This document shows positions 1-19,202 of a stretch of DNA of 26,345 bases, in pieces. The notes under the pieces are model-generated. The model ran no database searches, had not been told where the DNA came from, and was given only the letters and a program-made list of their open reading frames with translations. The translations under genes and the position numbers were made by a program. Each line of letters begins with the position of its first letter. Positions within the stretch are counted from its first letter, which is position 1. Origin of the DNA: a virus; IMG/VR virus record IMGVR_UViG_3300042924_000276, positions 1 through 26,345 of that record; one strand, written 5' to 3'.

Positions 1-1731
1 TGTGCAACTGACCCTGAGTTCAAAGAACGTGCCGAGGCTGCTCGCCTCGAGGGTAAGGGCATTAAGACTGACCTAAAGGAGCTGGGAGATATTTCCTTCC
101 CCGACTTCTCTGAGCAGTTCCTAGACACCAAACTTTTTGACCATCACCTTGACTGGGTAGACTTAATTGAGGGCCGTGAGCCCCGCTGGTTAGACCCAGC
201 CATGACATACGAGCCAGGTGCTGCCAACCGTGTACTGATTAACGTACCACCTGAGCACGCCAAGTCCACAGTCATTACGACTAACTACGTCGTCTACAAG
301 ATTGTGACTAACCCCAACGCCCGCGTCATCATTGTATCTAAGACGCAGGGTATGGCCCGCAAGTTTCTTGGGGCGATTAAGACAAGACTTTCCCACCCAG
401 CCTACACCAAGTTACAGGTGGCCTTCGGCCCCAACGGTGGCTATAAGGCAGACTCAACACAATGGTCTGCTGACATGATTTATCTGGGTACAGGACGCGA
501 CTCTGGCGAGAAAGACCCAACGGTCCAGGCCCTAGGTATGGGCTCACAGATTTACGGTGCTCGCGCTGACCTGATTATTATCGACGATGCTGTGATGGGC
601 TCAAACGCTCACGAGTGGGAAAAGCAGCTCGAGTGGATTCAAAAGGAAGTTATTACCCGCCTTGGGCGACATGGTAAATTAATTATCGTTGGCACTCGAG
701 TTGCACCAATTGACCTCTATAAGATGCTGCGTGACCCCCAGCAATGGTCTGGTGGCAAATCGCCCTTTACTTACTTTGCAATGCCTGCCGTACTCCAGTT
801 TGACGAGAAGCCTGATAACTGGAAGACGCTGTGGCCTAAGACCACACTGCAGGAAAACGAGATTGATGAACCCGATGAAAATGGTTTATATCCTAAGTGG
901 GACGGACCCTCGCTCTTTACGCGCCGCTCTGAAGTTGCGCCATCTGTCTGGGCTATGGTCTACCAACAAGAAGACGTCCAGTCCGATTCTATATTCGCGC
1001 CAACAGCAATTGCAGGATGTGTTAACGGTATGCGAAAGCGTGGACCGCTTAAACCAGGTGCTCCAGGGCACCCGTCCAGAGCAGGCTCGACCTACACAGT
1101 AATTGGCTTTGACCCTGCCGTATCTGGTCGTTCAGCATTTGTAGCCGTAACTCTTAACCGCGACGATAGTACAATCTACGTACTTGACTGCGTCAACATG
1201 GCAGACCCTACTCCTCAAAAGGAAAACGCTCTGATTCGTGAGTGGGTCGAGAAGTATAGCCCTCAAGAGTTTCGTGTGGAAATTAACGCACACCAGAAGT
1301 ACTACGCCATGGACACTGACCTGCGTAACTACCTGGCTAGTTATGGCTGCCAGTTAAACTCACACTTTACTGGTAAGAACAAGTGGGACACATCTTTCGG
1401 TGTAGCATCTATGGCTAGCCTTTTCGGTACTATCCATGATGGTCGCTACCAAGACAATGGTCTAATCGAACTACCAAGCAATGAAGGCTCAGAGGGACTT
1501 AAGTCTCTTGTGCAGCAACTCATTACCTGGAAGCCAGATACTAAGAACCCAACTGACTGCGTGATGGCTTTATGGTTTGCTATCATTCGTATCCGTGAAT
1601 TGATGCAACAAAGCAGTAGGGTTGGTCAGTTCCAAAATAATCGCTGGGCAACCAGAAGTCAAAAACAACAACGCATGTCATTGAACTTAGATGAAGCATT
1701 CGCTGAACAATGGCAAGACACTTATAGTTAG
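1..1731 (+). CDS. terL: Terminase large subunit (5' partial)
   Basis: This is the packaging motor ATPase and headful/cos nuclease that cuts concatemeric phage DNA and pumps it through the portal. The frame is open from base 1, and the first in-frame ATG at 202 falls 67 residues into visible protein, just before the ATPase core, so the real start lies upstream of the window. Counting from base 1, a Walker A-type motif (PPEHAKST) is at residues 83-90 and a Walker B (LIIIDD) at 191-196. A C-terminal RNase H-like nuclease domain follows: the first acidic residue is in VIGFDPA (D371), with later acidic positions such as VEINAHQK. 576 residues are visible, a normal size for TerL. A small gene follows after 8 bases and then the portal, the usual packaging order. 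The family call is confident. The subfamily and packaging mode cannot be read from the sequence. Confidence 0.95.
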   Translation, partial: CATDPEFKERAEAARLEGKGIKTDLKELGDISFPDFSEQFLDTKLFDHHLDWVDLIEGREPRWLDPAMTYEPGAANRVLINVPPEHAKSTVITTNYVVYKIVTNPNARVIIVSKTQGMARKFLGAIKTRLSHPAYTKLQVAFGPNGGYKADSTQWSADMIYLGTGRDSGEKDPTVQALGMGSQIYGARADLIIIDDAVMGSNAHEWEKQLEWIQKEVITRLGRHGKLIIVGTRVAPIDLYKMLRDPQQWSGGKSPFTYFAMPAVLQFDEKPDNWKTLWPKTTLQENEIDEPDENGLYPKWDGPSLFTRRSEVAPSVWAMVYQQEDVQSDSIFAPTAIAGCVNGMRKRGPLKPGAPGHPSRAGSTYTVIGFDPAVSGRSAFVAVTLNRDDSTIYVLDCVNMADPTPQKENALIREWVEKYSPQEFRVEINAHQKYYAMDTDLRNYLASYGCQLNSHFTGKNKWDTSFGVASMASLFGTIHDGRYQDNGLIELPSNEGSEGLKSLVQQLITWKPDTKNPTDCVMALWFAIIRIRELMQQSSRVGQFQNNRWATRSQKQQRMSLNLDEAFAEQWQDTYS

Positions 1732-1946: not shown

Positions 1947-3713
1947 ATGGCATTATCAATCGAACAAGTTGCGGCAAGAGTCGAGAACCTCCGCTTCCGC
2001 AACGCTGAACGCGACGGTCGCAACCTCGACGTTCTTTCGGTCCGCCAAGGAAATATTGCATCTGTCTATCCTGACTTTTTTCCAGACGGCGTAGATGCTA
2101 ACGTAGTTGCAAACTTTATTGACGTTGTCGCAAGCGATTTGTCAGAAGTTATGGCACCACTGCCTGCGGTCAACTGTTCAGCAGCTAACTCTGTTTCAGA
2201 CAGAGCGCGTTCATTTGCTGACAAGCGCACACGTATTGCCTCTAATTACTTTTCACACTCTGACCTTGCAGTACATATGTACCAAGGTGCAGACTGGTAT
2301 ATCACTTACGGTTTCCTCCCATTCTTTATTGAATTGGATGAGGAAGCAAAGTTGCCGCGCATCCGCCTAGAAAACCCACTGGGGTCTTACCCAGAATTCG
2401 ACCGCTACGGACGTTGCATTGCCTTTGCAAAACGCTATCTAACATCTTTGGCTGAGTTAGTCGCATTATATCCTGAGTATGAATACTCTTTGCTAGGTGG
2501 CGCAAGCTACAAGCAGGACTTGAATACTCAAGTTGAAATGATTCGCTACTACGACAAAGACCAATCAATCATCTACATTCCTACAAAGAATAACTTAGTG
2601 CTATCACGTGCTAAGAATCCATTGGGTAAGATGATGGTTGTAGTAGCACGTAAGCCATCCATCGATGATGAACTACGCGGACAATTCGACGACGTCCTTG
2701 GCATCCAGTTACTTCGCAACCGCTTTGCGTTGCTTGCGATGGAAGCTGCAGAGAAATCTGTACAGGCTCCTATCGTACTTCCACAAGATGTGCAGGAGTT
2801 GCAACTCGGTGGTGACGCTGTTATCCGTACAGCAAACCCAGCAGGTGTACGCCGCGTAGAACTTAACATTCCACCTGGCGCGTTTACTGAGCAGACCTTG
2901 CTTGGTCAAGAACTACGTGTTGGTACACGTTACCCTGAATCACGTACAGGAAACATCAGCGCATCAGTTGTTACTGGCCAAGGTGTACAGGCTCTTATGG
3001 GCGCCTTTGATACACAGGTTAAGTCAGCTCAAGCAATCTTTGCATCAGCGCTACGCGATGTAATCCAACTTTGTTTCCAAGTTGATGAAATAATTTTCCC
3101 AGATGAGAAGACAATCCGTGGTGTAGACTCAGGTTCACCATACGAAATTACATACAACCCTAAGAAGGACATCAAGGGTGACTACTCAGCTGATGTTCGT
3201 TATGGTATGTTGGCAGGACTTAACCCTGCACAGGGACTCATCTTTATGTTGCAAGCACTTGGTGGTGGACTTATCTCCAAGGATATGGCAATGCGTGAAC
3301 TTCCATTTACAGTTAACGTAACCCAAGAAGTAGAAAAGATTGAAATCGAGAGTATGCGAGCATCGCTTCTCGGTTCTATTAATGCACTCTCTCAAGCGAT
3401 ACCACAGATGGCTATGCAAGGCCAGGACGCTTCTGAAGTTGTGCGACAGATTGCGGCTGTCATTAAGGCACGCCAAAAGGGACAGGCACTAGAGGACGTC
3501 ATTGAAGAAGTCTTTACGCCAGAGCCGCAACCAGTTCCTCCTGTTGGGGCCCCACAAGCGGTTGAGCAACCGTCCCCTGTTCCCGCTGGCGCTCCAGCAG
3601 GAGGCGCTACTCTTTCACCAGAACAAGGTGCTCCTGACATTATGAGTTTATTATCAGGCATTTCTGGTACGGGACAACCAACTGCAAGCGTAAGAACAGT
3701 ACGCAGACGATAA
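1947..3713 (+). CDS. Portal protein (head-tail connector)
   Basis: This 588-residue protein directly downstream of the terminase has the size and composition of a phage portal. Portals form the dodecameric ring at one capsid vertex through which DNA enters and leaves and to which the tail attaches. The start is supported by TAGGA upstream of ATG 1947. The body is mixed alpha/beta, with long helical stretches near residues 415-510 and a Pro/Ala-rich, probably disordered tail (about 525-588, with runs such as PEPQPVPPVGAP). No motif is diagnostic by eye. The call rests on position between terL and the head genes, on length, and on a general resemblance to podovirus-type connectors recalled from memory. 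The next gene starts 13 bases later behind its own GGGGAC site. Confidence 0.82.
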   Translation: MALSIEQVAARVENLRFRNAERDGRNLDVLSVRQGNIASVYPDFFPDGVDANVVANFIDVVASDLSEVMAPLPAVNCSAANSVSDRARSFADKRTRIASNYFSHSDLAVHMYQGADWYITYGFLPFFIELDEEAKLPRIRLENPLGSYPEFDRYGRCIAFAKRYLTSLAELVALYPEYEYSLLGGASYKQDLNTQVEMIRYYDKDQSIIYIPTKNNLVLSRAKNPLGKMMVVVARKPSIDDELRGQFDDVLGIQLLRNRFALLAMEAAEKSVQAPIVLPQDVQELQLGGDAVIRTANPAGVRRVELNIPPGAFTEQTLLGQELRVGTRYPESRTGNISASVVTGQGVQALMGAFDTQVKSAQAIFASALRDVIQLCFQVDEIIFPDEKTIRGVDSGSPYEITYNPKKDIKGDYSADVRYGMLAGLNPAQGLIFMLQALGGGLISKDMAMRELPFTVNVTQEVEKIEIESMRASLLGSINALSQAIPQMAMQGQDASEVVRQIAAVIKARQKGQALEDVIEEVFTPEPQPVPPVGAPQAVEQPSPVPAGAPAGGATLSPEQGAPDIMSLLSGISGTGQPTASVRTVRRR

Positions 3714-3726
3714 GAAGGTAGGGGAC

Positions 3727-4272
3727 ATGACAACGATTATCGGAGTTCAACACGAAGATAAATGTGTAATTGTAACTGATAGTCGTATCGCAGCAGGTGG
3801 TAAAGTATACACTCATGAGACTATGGTAAAGGCAGTTGAACGTGGAAGTTATATTATTAGTGGTGCTGGTAACTATCGTGCTCTGCAAGTGGTACTCCAT
3901 GGGTGGACGCCTCCACTAGTTACAGTCAAGGCTAAAGCAAACTTGTATGAGTTTGCAATTAACAAAGTTGTGCCATCTATCAAAACGGTGCTAACTGAAG
4001 CAGGAGTAGATTTCAACAAGACATCAGATGACGATAATGATAAGTTTGAATTAAGCCTGTTAATAGCAATTAATGGAACTATCTTTGAGATAGATTCTGA
4101 TTTTGCTGTAGGAATGAATAGCACAAATTTTTATGGCATTGGTTCGGGTGGGGATTTTGCAGTAGGTGCACTTCACGCAGGAACTACAATGCTAGATGCA
4201 ATGCGAATTGCAACAATTAATAATAACGAGACGGCTCCGCCGTTTCATATCTTTGAGCAATTTACCAAGTAG
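3727..4272 (+). CDS. HslV/proteasome-beta-like Ntn hydrolase, candidate prohead protease
   Basis: The 181-residue protein begins MTTIIGV, matching the N-terminus of HslV and 20S proteasome beta subunits, where removal of Met exposes the catalytic Thr. Counting that Thr as 1, Asp17 falls in VTDSRIA and a Lys in MVKAVER at 34, close to the catalytic Lys33 of the family. A turn SGAGN (residues 45-49) matches the family's AGxxG element. The motif GIGSGGDFAVGAL at 137-149 closely resembles the GSGG segment of HslV that holds the catalytic-site serine. The length is close to HslV (about 175 residues). No HslU or other ATPase partner is in the window. Its place between portal and capsid suggests a self-compartmentalised or free protease that matures the prohead or trims the scaffold. 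The fold assignment is strong; the role is inferred. The start has a clear TAGGGGAC site. Confidence 0.85.
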   Translation: MTTIIGVQHEDKCVIVTDSRIAAGGKVYTHETMVKAVERGSYIISGAGNYRALQVVLHGWTPPLVTVKAKANLYEFAINKVVPSIKTVLTEAGVDFNKTSDDDNDKFELSLLIAINGTIFEIDSDFAVGMNSTNFYGIGSGGDFAVGALHAGTTMLDAMRIATINNNETAPPFHIFEQFTK

Positions 4273-4280
4273 GAGGAACA

Positions 4281-4697
4281 ATGGCTGTAGAAAATCGTGG
4301 AGGACCAAACGGTGGTCCACAATACAATCAGACCAATGTCAATCCTATGGGCGGTGACGGACAGAGCGGACGTATGGACCTAAATTATTCTGGCTTGCCT
4401 TATGGACAAAACAAGGCTACTAACGAACAACGTACTGCTGCTCCAACTAAGGCTCCATCAGGTGAGGCTGCACCACGTCCATCACTTGGCCCTATTACAC
4501 CAATTACTGCTGAGACAGAATTACCTGACCAGCTAGTAACTGACATGAGTGGATTGTCATCTTTGCCGCAACCTGCGGCGGACCCTGACATTGAGCAAAT
4601 ACGCACCATGTTACCAGTCCTTGAATTCTGGGCTAGTCAGCCTGATTCCTCACAGGGAACTAAGGACTACGTTCAGTATTTGAGGACTATTCTATGA
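4281..4697 (+). CDS. Hypothetical Gly/Pro/Asn-rich virion-associated protein
   Basis: A 138-residue protein with a strong AGGAGG ribosome site 8 bases after the Ntn hydrolase. Its stop overlaps the start of the giant ejection gene (ATGA at 4694), which implies translational coupling. The first 80 residues are rich in Gly, Asn, Pro and Ala and look disordered. The last 60 contain a more ordered acidic segment (SSLPQPAADPDIEQIRTML) and end in a short helix-like sequence. No family was recognised. The position suggests a minor head, head-completion or chaperone protein working with the next gene, but nothing in the sequence proves this. Confidence 0.8.
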   Translation: MAVENRGGPNGGPQYNQTNVNPMGGDGQSGRMDLNYSGLPYGQNKATNEQRTAAPTKAPSGEAAPRPSLGPITPITAETELPDQLVTDMSGLSSLPQPAADPDIEQIRTMLPVLEFWASQPDSSQGTKDYVQYLRTIL

Positions 4698-7600
4698 GCC
4701 TTTGGGAATACCTAGGCAACACTCAAAGATTACTTAATGGAGTTGGTGGTAACAATAATACACCTAACGTTAAGAATAATCGTCTACCATTTGGCGTGAC
4801 TCTTGATGTTGCAAAGAACCTACCAGATAATCCTGGTGGATGGAATGATGCAGTAGAGAAGGCACGTGTTGCATCTCTTACTACTGCTGGAAATGTTTTA
4901 GGAAAGCCATCTGGTATCCTTGCAGGTGCTGCAATTGGTAGCGTAATTCCTGGTGTAGGTACTGGTGCGGGTGCACTTCTTGGCGCTACTGCTTATGGAA
5001 TTGCTGAAGCTGATAAAGCAAGCAATGGTAAAGTCAGCAAAGTGCTTATGGCTGGCGCACGCAACGTGCGCTCTAACTATGCTTTTACTCGTGACGTAGC
5101 AAACAAAGATGCTGGCATGGGACTTCTCGCTGGCTTAACAATGATTGCTGGTGGAGCACTTGGTGGAATCGCAGGCTTTGCAGTCGGCGGACCAGTCGGT
5201 GCAGTAGCAGGTGCGGGACTTGGAGCAGCATTTGCTGGTAAAGCACAGCGTGATGTTGCTGAATCTGGTATGCTTAACTTCATCGACAAGGAATTGCAAA
5301 AGTCTGCTAAGTTTTCTGAGTCAGATGCAGGTCAAGAACACTACAACTTTGGCCGTGACACTACACAATTTGCTGCAAAGATTACAGGTTGGAACACATT
5401 AGGTGATACAACCAAGGGAATCGGTGCAGTTACATCTGGTATTCTTAACTTCGGTGTAGAAGCAAACATCGGACCTGACGTTTTAGGTCTAAAGTTTGCA
5501 GGCGCTGCCGCTCGTAGCGCACTTGTTAACCCAATTATTCAGCAACAGGGTGGAATTAGTGCACGTGTATTTAAGGGCACTAACCCAGACCTAATTAGAG
5601 ACCGTCTTATCACAGACGTTGACTTGATTAAGCGTACAGTTGCTGGTGAGGTTACACCTTATACACCAGTATTTAAGTTTTATCAAGAGAATGATGCAGC
5701 AACAATCATTCAGCGTCCAGAGTTTCGCAATGAAATCGGACAAATTGGTGCAAACCTTGTAGCAGGACAATCTCCTGAGACAATTGGTCTAATCCTTCGC
5801 GTAGGTCGTGGTGATATTGACGCACTTCAGGAGCTTGCTGTAAAGCGTGCTGATAAGTGGGCTGAACTTAACCGTTATCAATCAGCACTTGAGTCTGTTG
5901 ATAATGGGTACAACGTATACTTTGAATTCAAAGATGACATGATGCTCCTGTCTAACCGCTTTAAGGACAAGCGCGAAGCAGTTGAAGCTGAGATTAGTGC
6001 ACTTCGTAAAGAAGTAACATTTGTTAATGATGCACTTAAACTAGACACACGTATGGTTGACCGTACCGTATCTAAGTTTGCATGGGCAGAACGTTTACGT
6101 AACGACTTTGCTAAAGAACGTGCTGCTCGTAAACTAGAAGGCGCAGAACTTCCTGGTCGTGAGACTGGACTAGGTTCAATCGTACAAGGATTCTACCAGG
6201 CTAATCCACTATCTGTACCAATTCGCTTTATTGAGCGTTTAACAGATGAAGCCCCTCGTGGAACAGTTAACTTTAACGAGCCATTAATGGCAGTCGAGCG
6301 TGTTCGTACTAACATTCGTGCTGCTGTACAGGCAAAGCAAATTATGCCTGAGGAAGCACTTACATTTCTAGATGACTTTGTCAAGTCTCCTAACGAGATT
6401 GATAAGTTTAACTTTATTGAAGCATTTAATGATACACTTATCGAGCGTTCTGCTGCTAAGTATGGAGTTTCTCCGCTAATTGCTGAAGAAGTTATTAGCA
6501 TCTACCGTCGAGAAAATCGTAAGGTAGTATCTCAGGCAAAGACATCAAAAGAGTTAGATGTCGCCTACTTTATTGACGAGTCAGGTGAGGTTGCAGTTGA
6601 CCCTGTACTCGTTACCCAATTAGCCAATGGTTCTAATATTATTAATGCTAAAGAAGTAGATGCAGCGTTTAAGCGTTACTCCAAGAAGTACGGAGCAGAG
6701 GCAGGCCTACCACAAAACCTACTATTAGGTGGTAAGTTTATAGCAGATGAGTTCAACGGACTATGGCGTGGCTTTACATTGGCACGTGCTGGATATCCAA
6801 TCAACATTATCCGCGACTCTGCACTTCGTGCATGGGGAGACGTATCCCTTTTCGGTGTATTCAAGGAACTTGGCGTCGAAACAATGGATGCGATTAGTCG
6901 CAATACCAATAGTGTTAACAAGATTAATGACTGGGTTAAGGGTGTATCTAACCCAACCAAGAACATTGCTAGTATCCGTGGTAACATTGAAGACCGTTTG
7001 CGCACCATTACATTGCTAGAGTCTAAGTTAAAGGATGCAAAGTATGACTTTGATAATCCTCCTAAGGTTGTAACTGACTCTGTCGCCCGTACATTAGAGC
7101 AACATAAGCAACTTAAGAATACTGTAGATGAACTGCGCCGCCAAGAAGCGGCACTTACAACAGGTCTTAAATCAAAGCCAGTAGGCCGTGATAAGGTTAC
7201 AGTTAGTGGATATGATTTCCCTGCACCATTCTCTGGTCGATTCGGTGCGATTTCTCGCCAGCAGTTGACACAAAAGGATGACCTGCGTCGTGCTCTTGCC
7301 TCTGCCAAGGAACTAGAGATTGAAAGTATCCGTCGTGACCGTACTGGTAGCATTCCTATCGTAGCAGCACAGGACGAAGCAAGGCATCTACAGGCTTGGG
7401 AGCAAATCTTAAACGATAAGATTCGCTTTGATGATGTAGCACGCCAGATTCTTGCAGGCAAAAAGAAGAGCGATGTTATTTTGTGGATGAAAGACCCAGC
7501 AAATGTCAGTTATCTTGAGCGTTTTGGTACAGGTATCACAGCTAATACAGCATACGAGCGTATTAAAACTGTCGTAGATACATGGGCACCTAATGCTGAA

Positions 7601-9478
7601 CTACGCAAGTTAATCCTTGAGGATAAACTAGACCTAGTTAGATTAAAGCAATTGTACCCAGATGTACATCAACGTCCTATTGTTCTTACAGATGCAGTAG
7701 ATGACATGATGGCACGCAGTAATGCGTACGGTAAGTTCCGTGATGGACTTAAAGATGCAGTAGCGTGGCTATCTACAGTGCCTACAAGCCGCCTTATGTA
7801 CAACCCATACTTCGCATTAAAGTACCAGCAGAAGTTACAGAACATGGTAACGATTGCCAATACACAAGGCCGTCGCCTAACAGCTGAGGATAAAGCCTCA
7901 TTTGAAAAGGCAGCACGTGAGTATGGCATAAGTGAATACCGCAATAAGTTAAACTCCTTCCACAAGGATATGAACTATGCTGGTGTTATCAACTATATTC
8001 TTGCGTTCTTCCCTGCTTTAGTAGAACAGTACCGTGCATATGGTAAGATTGCACTGGAGAATCCAGACTTTATCGCTAAGGCTGCACAGATTACTACACT
8101 GCCAGGACGTGTTGGCGAGGTAGAAGAAGATGCATTTGGTACTGAGTATCTAAAGGTAGCATTACCATTTAATGGTATAGAGGGACGTATCCCTACAAGT
8201 TGGTTCAATCCTTTGAATCCTACTGGTGGAGCGATTATCTCAGCAGGTCCTTTGGCGACATTCTCTGTCAATGCTGCTGCAAAGAAGTACAACTTTGAGA
8301 ATAAGTTTACAGACTTCTTTATGCCATTCGGTGCACAGTCTAATGTACTACAACCATTGACACCTAATACGCTTAAGCGTAGTGCTCAAGCATTCCAGGC
8401 ATACTTTACACGTAGCGGTGAACAGTTTAATAAAGATGCAAATATGATTCTCTTACAGAAGCGATTCGATTTTGCACAATCAAAGGGCAGACAACCTAAT
8501 GCTGCTGAGTTGAAGGGGCTATCGGACGAAGCCGAAGATGGCGCAGTAGCGTTTTCAATGCTACGTTTCTTCTCATCTGTTATGTTCCCTACACAGCCAC
8601 GTCCTGTTACACCATTAACATTCTATGCTGATGAGTTAAACAAGATGCGTAATGCTGATAATGTAAACGGCGAGGAAGCATTTCTTGAAAAGTATCCTGA
8701 CTTTTTCCTGCTGACAACACGTTTGTCTGATGCAACATCAGGTCTAATCCCAGACAAGACTGCTGTTACGTTGGCAAAGAACAATCCAGATGCTATTAAA
8801 AATATCGTAGCCGCTGTTGGTGAAGATAATCTTGGTGTACTTGGTGCAGTATTTAATGATGCTAACTATGCGTTTTCATCTTCAGCACAGGCTTGGTTGC
8901 AGACATCTAATATTCCAGGAACCAGAAAGAAGTTCCGTGAGGTTGGTGCTTCTCTAGAAGCCAGCCGTTCATCTATCGTGAACAAGGGCTGGGATGACTG
9001 GTACAAGTTGATTACAATTGTAACAGAAGAACTAGAAGCATCAGGCATGGACCCAGCAAAGGGCTTTGGAAAGTCTATCATGGACAACTATAAGGCTCAG
9101 TTTCTTGAAGCTCAGAAAACTTCTAACAACTTATGGTATGAAGAAAAGATTGAGAACTCATTTGGTGGCAGCAATAGCAAGCAAGCAGATGCTGTGCGTG
9201 CACTAACTATCGCACTCAATGATGATAAACTAGGTGCAGAACTATTGAAGCAACCTAGATTCTCTACTATTGTTGAGTACCTGAATCTACGTTATGATGT
9301 GTATGATGGGTTGAAGGCTATGGGAACAACCTATGATTCCAAGAAGGCAGCGCAGTTGCGTTCAAATGTAGATACAATTGTTAACACAATGAAGAAGAAA
9401 GACATCAACTTTGCTAAGTTCTACGAGCGTTACTTCTCGGATGATAAGTTTGACTACGTATATGAGGAGCAGAAATAA
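4694..9478 (+). CDS. Giant internal virion / DNA-ejection protein (1594 aa)
   Basis: The largest gene in the window. Near the N-terminus are two long Gly/Ala segments: residues about 75-106 (GSVIPGVGTGAGALLG) and about 145-182 (GGALGGIAGFAVGGPVGAVA). Both are classic glycine zippers likely to insert in a membrane. The middle is long, charged and helical (for example around residues 410-450 and 800-920). The part from about 1090 onward (NYILAFFPALVEQYRAYG; GRIPTSWFNPLNPTGG near 1160) resembles, from memory, conserved ends of large internal virion proteins in environmental podovirus-type phages. No transglycosylase or peptidase motif was identified. Such proteins are packed in the head and are expelled to form a trans-envelope channel. 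The start overlaps the previous stop (ATGA) and the end overlaps the next start (TAATG). Role by size, zippers and neighbours. Confidence 0.78.
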   Translation: MSLWEYLGNTQRLLNGVGGNNNTPNVKNNRLPFGVTLDVAKNLPDNPGGWNDAVEKARVASLTTAGNVLGKPSGILAGAAIGSVIPGVGTGAGALLGATAYGIAEADKASNGKVSKVLMAGARNVRSNYAFTRDVANKDAGMGLLAGLTMIAGGALGGIAGFAVGGPVGAVAGAGLGAAFAGKAQRDVAESGMLNFIDKELQKSAKFSESDAGQEHYNFGRDTTQFAAKITGWNTLGDTTKGIGAVTSGILNFGVEANIGPDVLGLKFAGAAARSALVNPIIQQQGGISARVFKGTNPDLIRDRLITDVDLIKRTVAGEVTPYTPVFKFYQENDAATIIQRPEFRNEIGQIGANLVAGQSPETIGLILRVGRGDIDALQELAVKRADKWAELNRYQSALESVDNGYNVYFEFKDDMMLLSNRFKDKREAVEAEISALRKEVTFVNDALKLDTRMVDRTVSKFAWAERLRNDFAKERAARKLEGAELPGRETGLGSIVQGFYQANPLSVPIRFIERLTDEAPRGTVNFNEPLMAVERVRTNIRAAVQAKQIMPEEALTFLDDFVKSPNEIDKFNFIEAFNDTLIERSAAKYGVSPLIAEEVISIYRRENRKVVSQAKTSKELDVAYFIDESGEVAVDPVLVTQLANGSNIINAKEVDAAFKRYSKKYGAEAGLPQNLLLGGKFIADEFNGLWRGFTLARAGYPINIIRDSALRAWGDVSLFGVFKELGVETMDAISRNTNSVNKINDWVKGVSNPTKNIASIRGNIEDRLRTITLLESKLKDAKYDFDNPPKVVTDSVARTLEQHKQLKNTVDELRRQEAALTTGLKSKPVGRDKVTVSGYDFPAPFSGRFGAISRQQLTQKDDLRRALASAKELEIESIRRDRTGSIPIVAAQDEARHLQAWEQILNDKIRFDDVARQILAGKKKSDVILWMKDPANVSYLERFGTGITANTAYERIKTVVDTWAPNAELRKLILEDKLDLVRLKQLYPDVHQRPIVLTDAVDDMMARSNAYGKFRDGLKDAVAWLSTVPTSRLMYNPYFALKYQQKLQNMVTIANTQGRRLTAEDKASFEKAAREYGISEYRNKLNSFHKDMNYAGVINYILAFFPALVEQYRAYGKIALENPDFIAKAAQITTLPGRVGEVEEDAFGTEYLKVALPFNGIEGRIPTSWFNPLNPTGGAIISAGPLATFSVNAAAKKYNFENKFTDFFMPFGAQSNVLQPLTPNTLKRSAQAFQAYFTRSGEQFNKDANMILLQKRFDFAQSKGRQPNAAELKGLSDEAEDGAVAFSMLRFFSSVMFPTQPRPVTPLTFYADELNKMRNADNVNGEEAFLEKYPDFFLLTTRLSDATSGLIPDKTAVTLAKNNPDAIKNIVAAVGEDNLGVLGAVFNDANYAFSSSAQAWLQTSNIPGTRKKFREVGASLEASRSSIVNKGWDDWYKLITIVTEELEASGMDPAKGFGKSIMDNYKAQFLEAQKTSNNLWYEEKIENSFGGSNSKQADAVRALTIALNDDKLGAELLKQPRFSTIVEYLNLRYDVYDGLKAMGTTYDSKKAAQLRSNVDTIVNTMKKKDINFAKFYERYFSDDKFDYVYEEQK

Positions 9479-12544: not shown

Positions 12545-13018
12545 ATGAGCAACAACTACTGGGACGACGAAGACGATGACCAAGATAACGACAACGACAC
12601 ACAACTGGACGGAAGTGACTTACTTAAAAAGTTACGTAAAGCCAAGCGTGCAGACGAGAAGCGTATCAAGGAACTTACTGAGCAACTTGAGGGATTTTCC
12701 AAGGCGCAGCGTGAGTCAACCGTCAAGTCAGTACTAGAAAAGAAGGGTGTAAACCAGAAGGCAGCACGTCTAGTCCTCAAGGATTTAGATGGTGATTTTT
12801 CAGAAGAGGCAGTTTCAAACTGGCTAGACGAGAACGCTGACCTATTTGGTATAGAGGTATCACAGAAACGTGACGAACAAAACCTTGCGACGCTACGTCA
12901 GCAGGATGTCATGACACAGAATGCCGTTACACCAGACCGAGCACAGGACTTAGAACAGCGCATGGACAATGCAGGTTCTATGGAGGAACTCCTCGCCCTG
13001 ATGCAGTCAGAAAAATAA
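12545..13018 (+). CDS. Scaffold protein
   Basis: A 157-residue, highly charged protein immediately upstream of the major capsid gene. The first 25 residues are strongly acidic (DDEDDDQDNDND). A Lys/Glu-rich helical region predicting a coiled coil follows (about 28-70, e.g. RADEKRIKELTEQLEGF), then an acidic middle and a short C-terminal helix (EELLALMQ). Small size, acidity, coiled coil and position directly before the capsid gene are the standard signs of an internal assembly scaffold. These proteins have little sequence conservation, so the call rests on those features. It could be a substrate of the Ntn hydrolase encoded at 3727. The gap to the capsid gene is 31 bases with an AAGGAG site. 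Confidence 0.8.
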   Translation: MSNNYWDDEDDDQDNDNDTQLDGSDLLKKLRKAKRADEKRIKELTEQLEGFSKAQRESTVKSVLEKKGVNQKAARLVLKDLDGDFSEEAVSNWLDENADLFGIEVSQKRDEQNLATLRQQDVMTQNAVTPDRAQDLEQRMDNAGSMEELLALMQSEK

Positions 13019-13049: not shown

Positions 13050-14252
13050 ATGCCTAACGCATATACAGATACCTCGAGCACGTCGCTCGGCGGTACAGTT
13101 GGCGGCGCAGGTCTCGTACAAAAGGCGTATGACCGCCTTCTCGAGTTCGCTCTCCGTTCAGAACCCCTAATTCGTTCTGTCGCAGATAAGCGCCCAGCAA
13201 AGCAAGCAATCCCAGGTTCAACAGTAGTTCTACAGAAGTACGTTGACCTAGACACAAAGACATCAACACTAACAGAGACAGTTGACCCAGATGCAGTAGC
13301 ATTGTCAACACCAACATCTGTTACAGTGACACTTAACGAGTACGGTAACGCTGTACTTGTAACACGTGCGTTGGAACTATTCTCTCTAGCAGATGTAGAC
13401 CCAGCAATCGCTAACATCATTGCATACAACCTAGCCGATTCTATCGACGTAGTTGCAATGAACACACTTCGCTCAGGTTCAAACAACATCTTCGCAGGCA
13501 ATGCAACAGCAACTGCTAACGTAGATGCAGCCGATACACTAGACTCAGCAGACATCCGCAAGGCTGTTGCTAAGCTACGTGCTAACAAGGCTAAGGGCCG
13601 TCGCGGAAATGCATACTGGGTTGGTATCCACCCAGAAGTTTCACACGACCTTCGTGCAGAGACAGGCGACCTTGGATGGCGCTACCCACAGTCACAGTCT
13701 GCTTCAGAAGCAAGCAAGATTTGGGCTGGAGAAATCGGTGAGTACGAAGGCGCATTCTTCGTAGAGTCATCACGTTTGTACAACGCTAAGTCAGGTGCAG
13801 ACCAGTCAGCATTGGCAACAACAGCAGTAACAGTAGCAGGAACATCAGCTGGATTCACATTCGGCGTTGCTTCATCTGCAGTTATCGCAACACGCGCTGA
13901 AGTTGGTGACAAGATTGCAGGAACAGGTATCGCTTCAGGTGCTAAGATTACTGCTATCACTACATCAGGTTCAACAACTACATTTACTGTAGACACAGCA
14001 AACACAGCAGCAGTAACAGTTTCAACAACTGTAACTGTAACACCAGTAACACGTGTCTTCGACACAATCGTTGCAGGTTCACAGGCAATGGCAGAAGCTG
14101 TAGCTGAAGAGCCACACGTAGTTATCGGTAACGTAACTGATAAGTTGATGCGCTTCCGCCCAATGGGTTGGTACGGCGTACTTGGCTTCGCAGTATACCG
14201 TGACGAGGCTCTATACCGAATCACATCAGGTTCATCAATCGCTGCTCTCTAG
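13050..14252 (+). CDS. Major capsid protein, N4-gp56-type, with inserted domain
   Basis: A 400-residue protein with an AAGGAG site 5' of its ATG. The N-terminal half shows the pattern of the N4-gp56 major capsid family: an early helix (QKAYDRLLEFALRSEPLI), a segment PGSTVVLQKYVDL, then TLTETVDPDAV and TLNEYGNAVLVTRALEL, as in HK97-fold shells. A segment at about residues 252-333 (from SALATTAVTVAG to TVTVTPVTRVF) is a Thr/Ala/Val-rich, beta-type sequence that splits the C-terminal part. It looks like an inserted Ig-like or decoration domain. The core resumes with IVAGSQAMAEAV and ends VYRDEALYRITSG. The codon choice is strict and repetitive, as expected of the most highly expressed phage gene. 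A strong hairpin follows the stop. Confidence 0.9.
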   Translation: MPNAYTDTSSTSLGGTVGGAGLVQKAYDRLLEFALRSEPLIRSVADKRPAKQAIPGSTVVLQKYVDLDTKTSTLTETVDPDAVALSTPTSVTVTLNEYGNAVLVTRALELFSLADVDPAIANIIAYNLADSIDVVAMNTLRSGSNNIFAGNATATANVDAADTLDSADIRKAVAKLRANKAKGRRGNAYWVGIHPEVSHDLRAETGDLGWRYPQSQSASEASKIWAGEIGEYEGAFFVESSRLYNAKSGADQSALATTAVTVAGTSAGFTFGVASSAVIATRAEVGDKIAGTGIASGAKITAITTSGSTTTFTVDTANTAAVTVSTTVTVTPVTRVFDTIVAGSQAMAEAVAEEPHVVIGNVTDKLMRFRPMGWYGVLGFAVYRDEALYRITSGSSIAAL

Positions 14253-17312: not shown

Positions 17313-19202
17313 ATGACAACACGCAATTACTCCTCTCGCTCTCAGCAGACAACACTAACAAGTGCGGTTACTGCTGGCGCATCAACGATAGTTGTTCAGT
17401 CAGGTACTGCACTCCTTGGTGGTCAGTCTATTCCTGCGGGTACAACGTTTACAGTTGTGGTAGACCCAGATACAGCGCTCGAAGAAATTTTAGATGCCAC
17501 CGCGGTATCGACTAACACCTTTACAGTAACACGTGCTATTGATGGTTCCTCGGCCCAGGCTCACTCTGCTGGTGCGGTTGTCCGTCACATGGCAATTGGT
17601 CGCGACTACCGCGAAGCCAATGCCCACGTAGAGGCTTCTACGGGTGTCCACGGCATCTCTAACTCCTCTTCTGTTGTCGGAACTATCGACACACAAACAC
17701 TAACCAACAAAACTCTTACAAGCCCTACAATCACCAACCCTAACATCTCAGGTGCTGGCGTAGATGCGAGCATTGTTTTCGAAGGTGCTACGGCAGATGC
17801 CTATGAGACCACCCTTACAGTGGTCGACCCAACTCAGGACAACACAATTACAATGCCTAACACAACAGGCACAGTGGTAATTGCTACGGCAGTACAGACT
17901 CTTACCAACAAGACTTTAACAAGCCCAACTATTTCTGGTTCTCCAGTAATTACTGGTCTATCTTCTGCAGGGATGTCAGCATCATCTGCGACTCCTAAGG
18001 ATTACGTAGATAGCATTCTAGGCTCTGCTACAGCAGCAGCCACATCAGCAGCAAGTGCTGCTACTAGTGCAGCATCGGCTGCTACATCTGCTGGAAGTTC
18101 TGAAACATCTGCAATAGCATCTGCTACATCTGCAAGTGCTTCTGCAAGTTCTGCAACAGCAGCAGCGACAAGCGCTACCTCAGCAGCAGCCTCTGCCACA
18201 GCAGCAGCAACGAGTGCAACCTCATCAGCATCTTCTGCTACGGCAGCAGCAACGAGCGCAGCTAGCGCCGCTGCCAGCGCTACCGCTGCTGCAACATCAG
18301 CAACTTCTGCTGCGGCTAGTGCAACTACTGCTGCTAATTCAGTGGCAACCATTGCTGGCTATGCAACATCATCAGCAAACTCTGCAACTGCTGCTGCTAC
18401 ATCTGCAGCAAGTGCTGCTACATCTGCCACTAGTGCTGCAGCATCTGCTGCATCTATGTCAGGTAGCGTTGCGGCTGCAGCAACATCTGCTGCAAGTGCT
18501 TCTGCAAGCGCAACGGCAGCTGCTACAAGTGAGACTAATGCCGCTGCTAGTGCAACTGCAGCAGCGACATCAGCAACATCTGCATCAGCAAGTGCTACCG
18601 CTTCAGCCAACAGTGCTTCGGCATCAGCTACTTCTGCTACTGCATCTGCATCATCAGCAAGTGCTGCAGCAACAAGTGCATCAAGTGCTGCTACTTCTCA
18701 AACTGCAGCAGCAACCAGTGCTGCAAGTGCAGCAACTTCAGCAACAAGTGCTGCTGCATCATACGATGAGTTTGATGATAGATACCTAGGCTCTAAAACA
18801 TCTGACCCAACAGTAGACAATGATGGTGGTGCTCTTATTACTGGAGCGCTTTACTTTAACTCAGTCATTGGTGCGATGAAGGTTTATGACGGCGCAGCCT
18901 GGGACCTTGTAGCACCTGACACATCTAACTTTATTGACAAATCAATTCTTACCGCAAAGGGTAGTCTTATCTCGGCAAGCGGTTCATCTACACCCTCTGC
19001 TCTTACAGTTGCCTCAACTAATGGTTATATCCTTAGCGTTAATAGCGCAACAACTACAGGTCTTGAATGGACTGCACCTAATCCAGGAGACATTACTGGC
19101 GTAACCGCTGGTGATGGACTTGCAGGTGGCGGAACATCAGGGACAGTAACACTAAGTTTATCAGACGAAACAAGCATCAACGCCGTCATGGGCGTTCTCT
19201 AA
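17313..19202 (+). CDS. Tail fiber with Ala/Ser heptad stalk
   Basis: 629 residues in four parts. Residues 1-120 form a beta-rich base with virion-anchoring character (TALLGGQSIPAGTTFTVVVD; REANAHVEASTGVHG). Residues 121-235 carry two copies of a TLTNKTLTSPTI motif (starting about 126 and 193), widespread in phage fibers. Residues about 237-482 are almost only Ala, Ser and Thr in heptad-like units (SATAAAT, SATSAAA), like the small-residue stalks of lambda Stf-type side fibers, and are expected to form a trimeric coiled rod. Residues 483-629 are a C-terminal knob region ending in an aspartate/Gly-rich part (GVTAGDGLAGGGTSG). There is no chaperone-like cut-off domain. It probably works with the adhesin at 19535. 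Confidence 0.85.
   Translation: MTTRNYSSRSQQTTLTSAVTAGASTIVVQSGTALLGGQSIPAGTTFTVVVDPDTALEEILDATAVSTNTFTVTRAIDGSSAQAHSAGAVVRHMAIGRDYREANAHVEASTGVHGISNSSSVVGTIDTQTLTNKTLTSPTITNPNISGAGVDASIVFEGATADAYETTLTVVDPTQDNTITMPNTTGTVVIATAVQTLTNKTLTSPTISGSPVITGLSSAGMSASSATPKDYVDSILGSATAAATSAASAATSAASAATSAGSSETSAIASATSASASASSATAAATSATSAAASATAAATSATSSASSATAAATSAASAAASATAAATSATSAAASATTAANSVATIAGYATSSANSATAAATSAASAATSATSAAASAASMSGSVAAAATSAASASASATAAATSETNAAASATAAATSATSASASATASANSASASATSATASASSASAAATSASSAATSQTAAATSAASAATSATSAAASYDEFDDRYLGSKTSDPTVDNDGGALITGALYFNSVIGAMKVYDGAAWDLVAPDTSNFIDKSILTAKGSLISASGSSTPSALTVASTNGYILSVNSATTTGLEWTAPNPGDITGVTAGDGLAGGGTSGTVTLSLSDETSINAVMGVL
18022..18760 (+). repeat. Imperfect tandem repeat coding Ala/Ser/Thr heptads
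   Basis: About 740 bases of degenerate 21-base units built from GCA, GCT, TCT, TCA and AGT codons, such as SATAAAT followed by SATSAAA. The units differ at synonymous positions, so this is an old, drifting array rather than a fresh slippage product. Open frames on the other strand and in the +1 frame (Gln/Leu-rich) are by-products of the composition. Such arrays can change length by recombination, altering stalk length. Confidence 0.85.

Follow-up and report, generated by a model that had tools for sequence, protein, structure and literature searches.

The gene for a proteasome-type Ntn hydrolase that lies directly behind the portal gene in the window (the whole stretch of 26,345 nucleotides of viral DNA analysed here, an IMG/VR fragment) is a strongly favoured, dispensable cassette, swapped between divergent alleles in its phage clade. 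Its product is probably an accessory, late-expressed threonine peptidase of the BPH/HslV type, without an ATPase of its own, that acts on a phage or host protein. Proteasome homologs of phages are already known (Fuchs et al., 2021; PMC8665760); new is a conserved cassette at the side of the portal in phages of abundant freshwater Actinobacteria, for which natural knock-outs and allele swaps exist.

The closest public relatives of the window are OX376640 and OX376641, which correspond to LanE43-AprE7 and LanE43-AprF5 (E7 and F5 below), two cultured freshwater phages of 'Ca. Planktophila' (Nanopelagicales) (PMC10202952). These hosts are tiny actinobacteria and are among the most abundant freshwater bacteria. 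E7 encodes an Ntn protein with 49% identity to that of the window, and the gene directly follows the E7 portal gene. One near-full relative (G001) has a gene for WhiB, which fits a phage with an actinobacterial host. In the early region of G001 (L060:10375-12504) and also in G003, genes for an amidoligase (PF12224) and a class II glutamine amidotransferase, a second Ntn-type family, lie next to each other; this pair is missing from E7 and from the compared genomes that lack the portal-side Ntn gene.

The gene, its product and the head operon

The features of the operon are as follows.
202..1731, plus strand: terminase large subunit gene (phrog_38, E=6.9e-62)
1947..3713, plus strand: portal protein gene (phrog_104, E=2.8e-29)
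3715..3724, plus strand: Shine-Dalgarno-like sequence AAGGTAGGGG, in the gap between the portal and Ntn genes (from the sequence)
3727..4272, plus strand: Ntn-hydrolase gene, proteasome/BPH/HslV-like peptidase of 181 aa (PHROG_1040, AlphaFold2, Foldseek)
4281..4697, plus strand: gene for a 138-aa protein, homologue of Immanuel3 gp7, right border of the variable slot (phmmer, E=5e-6)
4694..9478, plus strand: gene for a giant protein of 1594 aa, homologue of Immanuel3 gp9, left gene of a hypervariable island (phrog_10618)
12545..13018, plus strand: scaffolding protein gene, kept in genomes lacking the Ntn gene (phrog_648, E=2.7e-6)
13050..14252, plus strand: major capsid protein gene, 400 aa (phrog_1357, E=2.2e-76)

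The terminase gene probably starts upstream of the window edge, because the terminase of relatives has 622 aa. The Ntn reading frame begins with ATG after a gap of 13 nt from the portal stop and ends 8 nt before the next gene; its Shine-Dalgarno-like motif is AGGGG, and most alleles have GGAGGGG or GTAGGGG upstream. From this gene spacing it is predicted that the gene is expressed late and together with the portal. Promoter and terminator scans of the operon gave a result not above chance. Further downstream (17313-19202), a predicted tail-fibre protein contains a long low-complexity tract of Ala/Ser/Thr repeats (ATSAAASATAAATSATS...).

The first-pass annotation of this DNA had read the gene as encoding an HslV/proteasome-beta-like Ntn hydrolase, and this is borne out by profile, fold and invariant residues, which together indicate an intact active site. 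The profile PHROG_1040, 'peptidase HslV family', aligns with residues 1-177 of the window protein (E=1.1e-22) and detects four other alleles with E values of 1e-23 to 6e-30. Against Pfam Proteasome (PF00227) the window protein reaches E=3.8e-4 and 20.6 bits, with a gathering cut-off of 22.4 bits that is exceeded by the homologous alleles L098 (27.3) and L087 (28.6). An AlphaFold2 model, built from 34 alleles as a monomer prediction, has a mean pLDDT of 92.7 and a pTM of 0.88 and displays the alpha-beta-beta-alpha Ntn fold, with predicted helices at residues 50-59 and 73-91; the insertion that connectase has between strands 3 and 4 is absent. The structural comparison that had been proposed earlier, with HslV and the proteasome, was done with Foldseek and gave 911 PDB matches at E<=1e-3, headed by BPH and followed by HslV and the 20S proteasome; BPH is also the top PDB match by sequence.

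The expected motifs, namely a Met-Thr start, Asp at mature position 17 and GIGSGG, are all present, and the length (181 aa) is similar to that of HslV. The lysine noted near position 33 lies at mature residue 34, shifted by one position relative to HslV. The corresponding codons and segments of the gene are listed below.
3730..3732, plus strand: codon of Thr1, the nucleophile after Met removal (Thr in 158/158 full-length alleles)
3778..3780, plus strand: codon of catalytic Asp17 (precursor D18; 158/158)
3829..3831, plus strand: codon of the catalytic Lys33 equivalent (precursor K35; 158/158)
3868..3870, plus strand: codon of the oxyanion-hole Gly47 equivalent (precursor G48; 158/158)
4006..4050, plus strand: acidic pore-loop segment, residues 94-108, VDFNKTSDDDNDKFE (by alignment with the BPH acidic loop)
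4135..4152, plus strand: GIGSGG motif, residues 137-142 (G139 and G141 invariant)

All 158 full-length slot alleles thus have the same Thr1, Asp17, Lys33 equivalent and Gly47, and a median pairwise dN/dS of 0.095 among slot alleles indicates purifying selection. The net charge of the acidic loop ranges from -5 to 0 across alleles, and only residues 99-101, within this loop, have a pLDDT below 50 in the model. The equivalent region is disordered in BPH crystals (PMC5777263). In one relative (L037:1002-1544) the Ntn gene is frameshifted, with 52 aa in one frame and the remainder in another, by sequencing error or decay.

Linkage to the portal and exchange at the slot

In relatives found with the Ntn protein, the gene order terminase, portal, Ntn gene, 138-aa protein gene was seen in 54/54 cases where the neighbours were visible. 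In order to avoid the bias of an Ntn-based search, scans based on the portal were run as well, and among 157 resolvable contigs found in this way the Ntn gene directly follows the portal gene in 142 and is missing from 15, so that the portal linkage for which the first-pass annotation had suggested a search in other phages is upheld. After deduplication, 173 contigs with and 15 without the gene were obtained in total, numbers to be read with the knowledge that two of the portal scans used portals of phages lacking the gene as queries, which favours non-carriers, that pattern scans reach close relatives first and that IMG/VR contigs are often fragments.

The Ntn alleles are 27%-100% identical to the window protein, and the portals about 80% or above. 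In the 15 contigs lacking the gene, the slot contains a basic/acidic protein of 73-90 aa (13 contigs) or an 86-aa protein (2 contigs). The 73-90-aa protein occurs in none of 155 Ntn carriers and in 12 of the 14 non-carriers with enough sequence, and it has no known family. At L219:7777-8001, L113:6527-6799 and 11 other loci this protein, with the conserved core YSKLDQYAIELHEFYKSLRRAGF..., is an exact replacement of the Ntn gene. In none of eight records lacking the gene that were searched whole was an Ntn gene found elsewhere in the genome, in a run made without a positive control of its own, though an HMM search did detect the family in carriers. Near-full genomes lacking the Ntn gene retain the portal (80% identity), the scaffold (65-67%) and the capsid protein (65-74% over aligned parts).

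On the portal tree at least five gains or losses of the Ntn gene are required, all forced by well-supported branches, replacement events having been counted on this one tree. The portal of L173, which lacks the Ntn gene, is 97.6% identical to that of the carrier L153, and L098 and L107 have portals that are 98.5% identical with Ntn proteins that are only 32% identical. As near-identical portals are accompanied by an absent or divergent Ntn gene, the slot behaves as an exchangeable cassette. Repeated independent acquisition from other phages was considered and set aside, as the slot alleles may still form a single clade (p-AU 0.17). The D-type alleles share 40.5% identity with the protein of phage DSL-LC01 compared with about 30% with the window type. 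With respect to bacterial donors, one scan of genome contigs gave only four weak matches, in proteobacterial MAGs.

The Beephvirinae, cultured Streptomyces podophages, form the sister group, and their module matches gene for gene, with terminase, portal (41%), gp7 in place of the 138-aa protein, a giant protein, the position of the scaffold, and a capsid protein that shares about 55% over the parts that align. Their slot contains small ORFs. The Ntn gene was found in none of 69 portal-found soil contigs of the sister clade and nowhere in eight near-full soil sister records.

Candidate functions

The first-pass annotation had seen neither an ATPase partner nor another protease, and both observations hold: no HslU/ClpX-type protein and no second recognisable protease were detected among the window proteins tested, and neither an AAA+ protease ATPase nor a second protease was recognised among the other genes tested in the near-full relative G001. 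A DnaB-like protein is the sole ATPase recognised among the tested proteins of both. Because this set contained no recognisable AAA+ protease ATPase, a self-compartmentalising threonine peptidase that does not depend on an unfoldase of its own is favoured. Removal of Met would expose Thr1, and the subunits may then assemble into a ring barrel like that of BPH or HslV, in which the acidic pore loop would gate the entry of substrates; it is therefore proposed that no dedicated unfoldase is needed. Such a barrel, made late with the portal, would degrade or trim a flexible or specific protein of phage or host, and would raise phage yield while not being required for head building. Because BPH itself is inert in published in vitro assays (PMC5777263), proteolytic activity is a prediction from the conserved site. 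Against the accessory reading, a position behind the portal and a retention of about 90% in the clade are the pattern expected of a morphogenesis gene; moreover, the small replacing protein could be a functional substitute, and 'accessory' would then understate the role of the Ntn protein.

The setting of other PHROG_1040 genes, as far as deposited annotation describes it, bears on the alternatives. Microbacterium phage WaterT and Klebsiella phage VLCpiM12a have a separate annotated head protease with the Ntn gene apart from it; in phAPEC8, Pumpernickel, Geobacillus phage E3 and Pseudoalteromonas phage J2-1 the Ntn gene has PhoH, MazG/ThyX or further metabolic genes nearby; and in DSL-LC01, Hum25, VpV262 and D'Alembert it is distant from the portal gene. 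As the Ntn genes of these phages lie away from head genes, PHROG_1040 is not generally a head protease family.

The second option of the first-pass annotation, an action on host proteolysis or on another target, is still a candidate. A protease for counter-defence or host takeover, which would act late in infection by removing a regulatory or defence protein of the host, is an unlikely alternative with several observations in its favour. The slot behaves as a cassette with gain, loss, divergent alleles and a swap with an unrelated small protein, it adjoins a hypervariable island, and PHROG_1040 genes in other phages lie among early or metabolic genes. However, the gene is part of a late operon whereas counter-defence genes are usually early, and a retention of about 90% is high for such genes.

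Head maturation, the use that the first-pass annotation had put forward, is not supported. As a head protease of the clade, the enzyme would be made with the portal, enter the prohead and cleave the scaffold, the portal tail or the capsid protein. The canonical portal-protease gene order, the strong retention beside the portal, the conserved catalytic site and the lack of another recognised protease in the tested parts of near-full relatives are all as such a role would have it. However, members of the clade without the gene have portals up to 97.6% identical to those of carriers and, in near-full genomes, the same scaffold (65-67%) and capsid protein; the Beephvirinae do without it; portal tails are similar with and without it; the scaffold protein is separate and the capsid protein has no obvious N-terminal delta region; and some PHROG_1040 phages have a head protease of their own. 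This role is therefore considered very unlikely. It is also very unlikely that Nanopelagicales phages recruited a proteasome-type Ntn peptidase as a portal-linked, ATPase-free head protease whose task can be taken over, in a few relatives, by an unrelated small protein; if true, it would be the first prohead protease with a proteasome-type fold.

Individual candidate substrates were considered too. The portal tail was discarded, since tails resemble each other with and without the Ntn gene. The major capsid protein of some phages of the clade contains an insert of 77 aa (window residues ~258-335). A linkage of this insert to the Ntn gene was not retained: nine Ntn-bearing records lack the insert and G010, which lacks the gene, has it (Fisher p=0.27, a test that ignores relatedness). 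The giant neighbour is unlikely to be an obligatory substrate, as carriers have at least three giant-protein families and phages lacking the Ntn gene occur with each of them. These families, encoded at 4694-9478 of the window and equivalent positions, are unlinked at the similarity cut-off used and are flanked by conserved genes, and this variability agrees with an 8-kb island between phages E7 and F5.

Finally, it is highly improbable that the Ntn site catalyses a different reaction, such as that of an amidase or a connectase-like transpeptidation, or that the protein serves as a structural ring, since the full proteasome triad is invariant and the model lacks the connectase-type insertion after strand 3 and before strand 4, even though BPH and Anbu showed no peptidase activity in published assays and connectase, which belongs to that fold family, acts as a ligase (PMC8665760 for connectase; PMC5777263 for BPH and Anbu).

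An accessory threonine peptidase thus remains the preferred reading, and the gene need no longer be misannotated, tempting as that is, as one for a head maturation protease. With variants in presence, absence and allele, together with the cultured phages E7 and F5 on strain LanE-43, it becomes possible to test directly what an orphan proteasome family does.

Comparison with known proteasome-type systems

With HslV the window protein has in common the fold, the Thr1/Asp17/Lys33 triad, the GSGG motif and the length. However, it scores about 25 bits against NCBIfam equivalog cut-offs of 157.75 and 137, its pore region is acidic whereas that of HslV is basic, and HslV has HslU as partner whereas no HslU was recognised among the tested proteins of the window or G001. 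BPH (PDB 5ovs, 5ovu), at about 18-21% identity, likewise has an acidic, flexible pore loop, and it is not regulated by a known unfoldase, just as no unfoldase partner was recognised for the window protein. BPH is a bacterial protein that forms a tetradecameric double ring (PMC5777263), whereas the window protein is from a phage and was modelled as a monomer.

Among the proteasome homologs described in phages, PPH and AAH (Fuchs et al., 2021; PMC8665760) are Group I homologs without AAA+ partner or propeptide, like the window protein, AAH being compared by its description. PPH is shorter, at about 140 aa, and has no helix H2, whereas the window protein has 181 aa with both H1 and H2. According to Fuchs et al. 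(2021), the genomic surroundings were uninformative and AAH was found in no phage specific to Actinobacteria (PMC8665760); the present clade, in contrast, infects Actinobacteria and provides such a context, so that a conserved genomic setting is now available for phage proteasome homologs that were earlier catalogued without such a clue. Phage genes of the PHROG_1040 group (VpV262 ORF47, phAPEC8 gp175, Microbacterium WaterT gp15) belong to the same profile family and share the Met-Thr start, the Ntn fold and the lack of an ATPase partner gene, but they sit among early, nucleotide-metabolism or unlinked genes whereas that of the present clade directly follows the portal gene. The window protein is accordingly filed as a phage HslV-family peptidase (PHROG_1040), distinct from HslV, from PPH and from prohead proteases.
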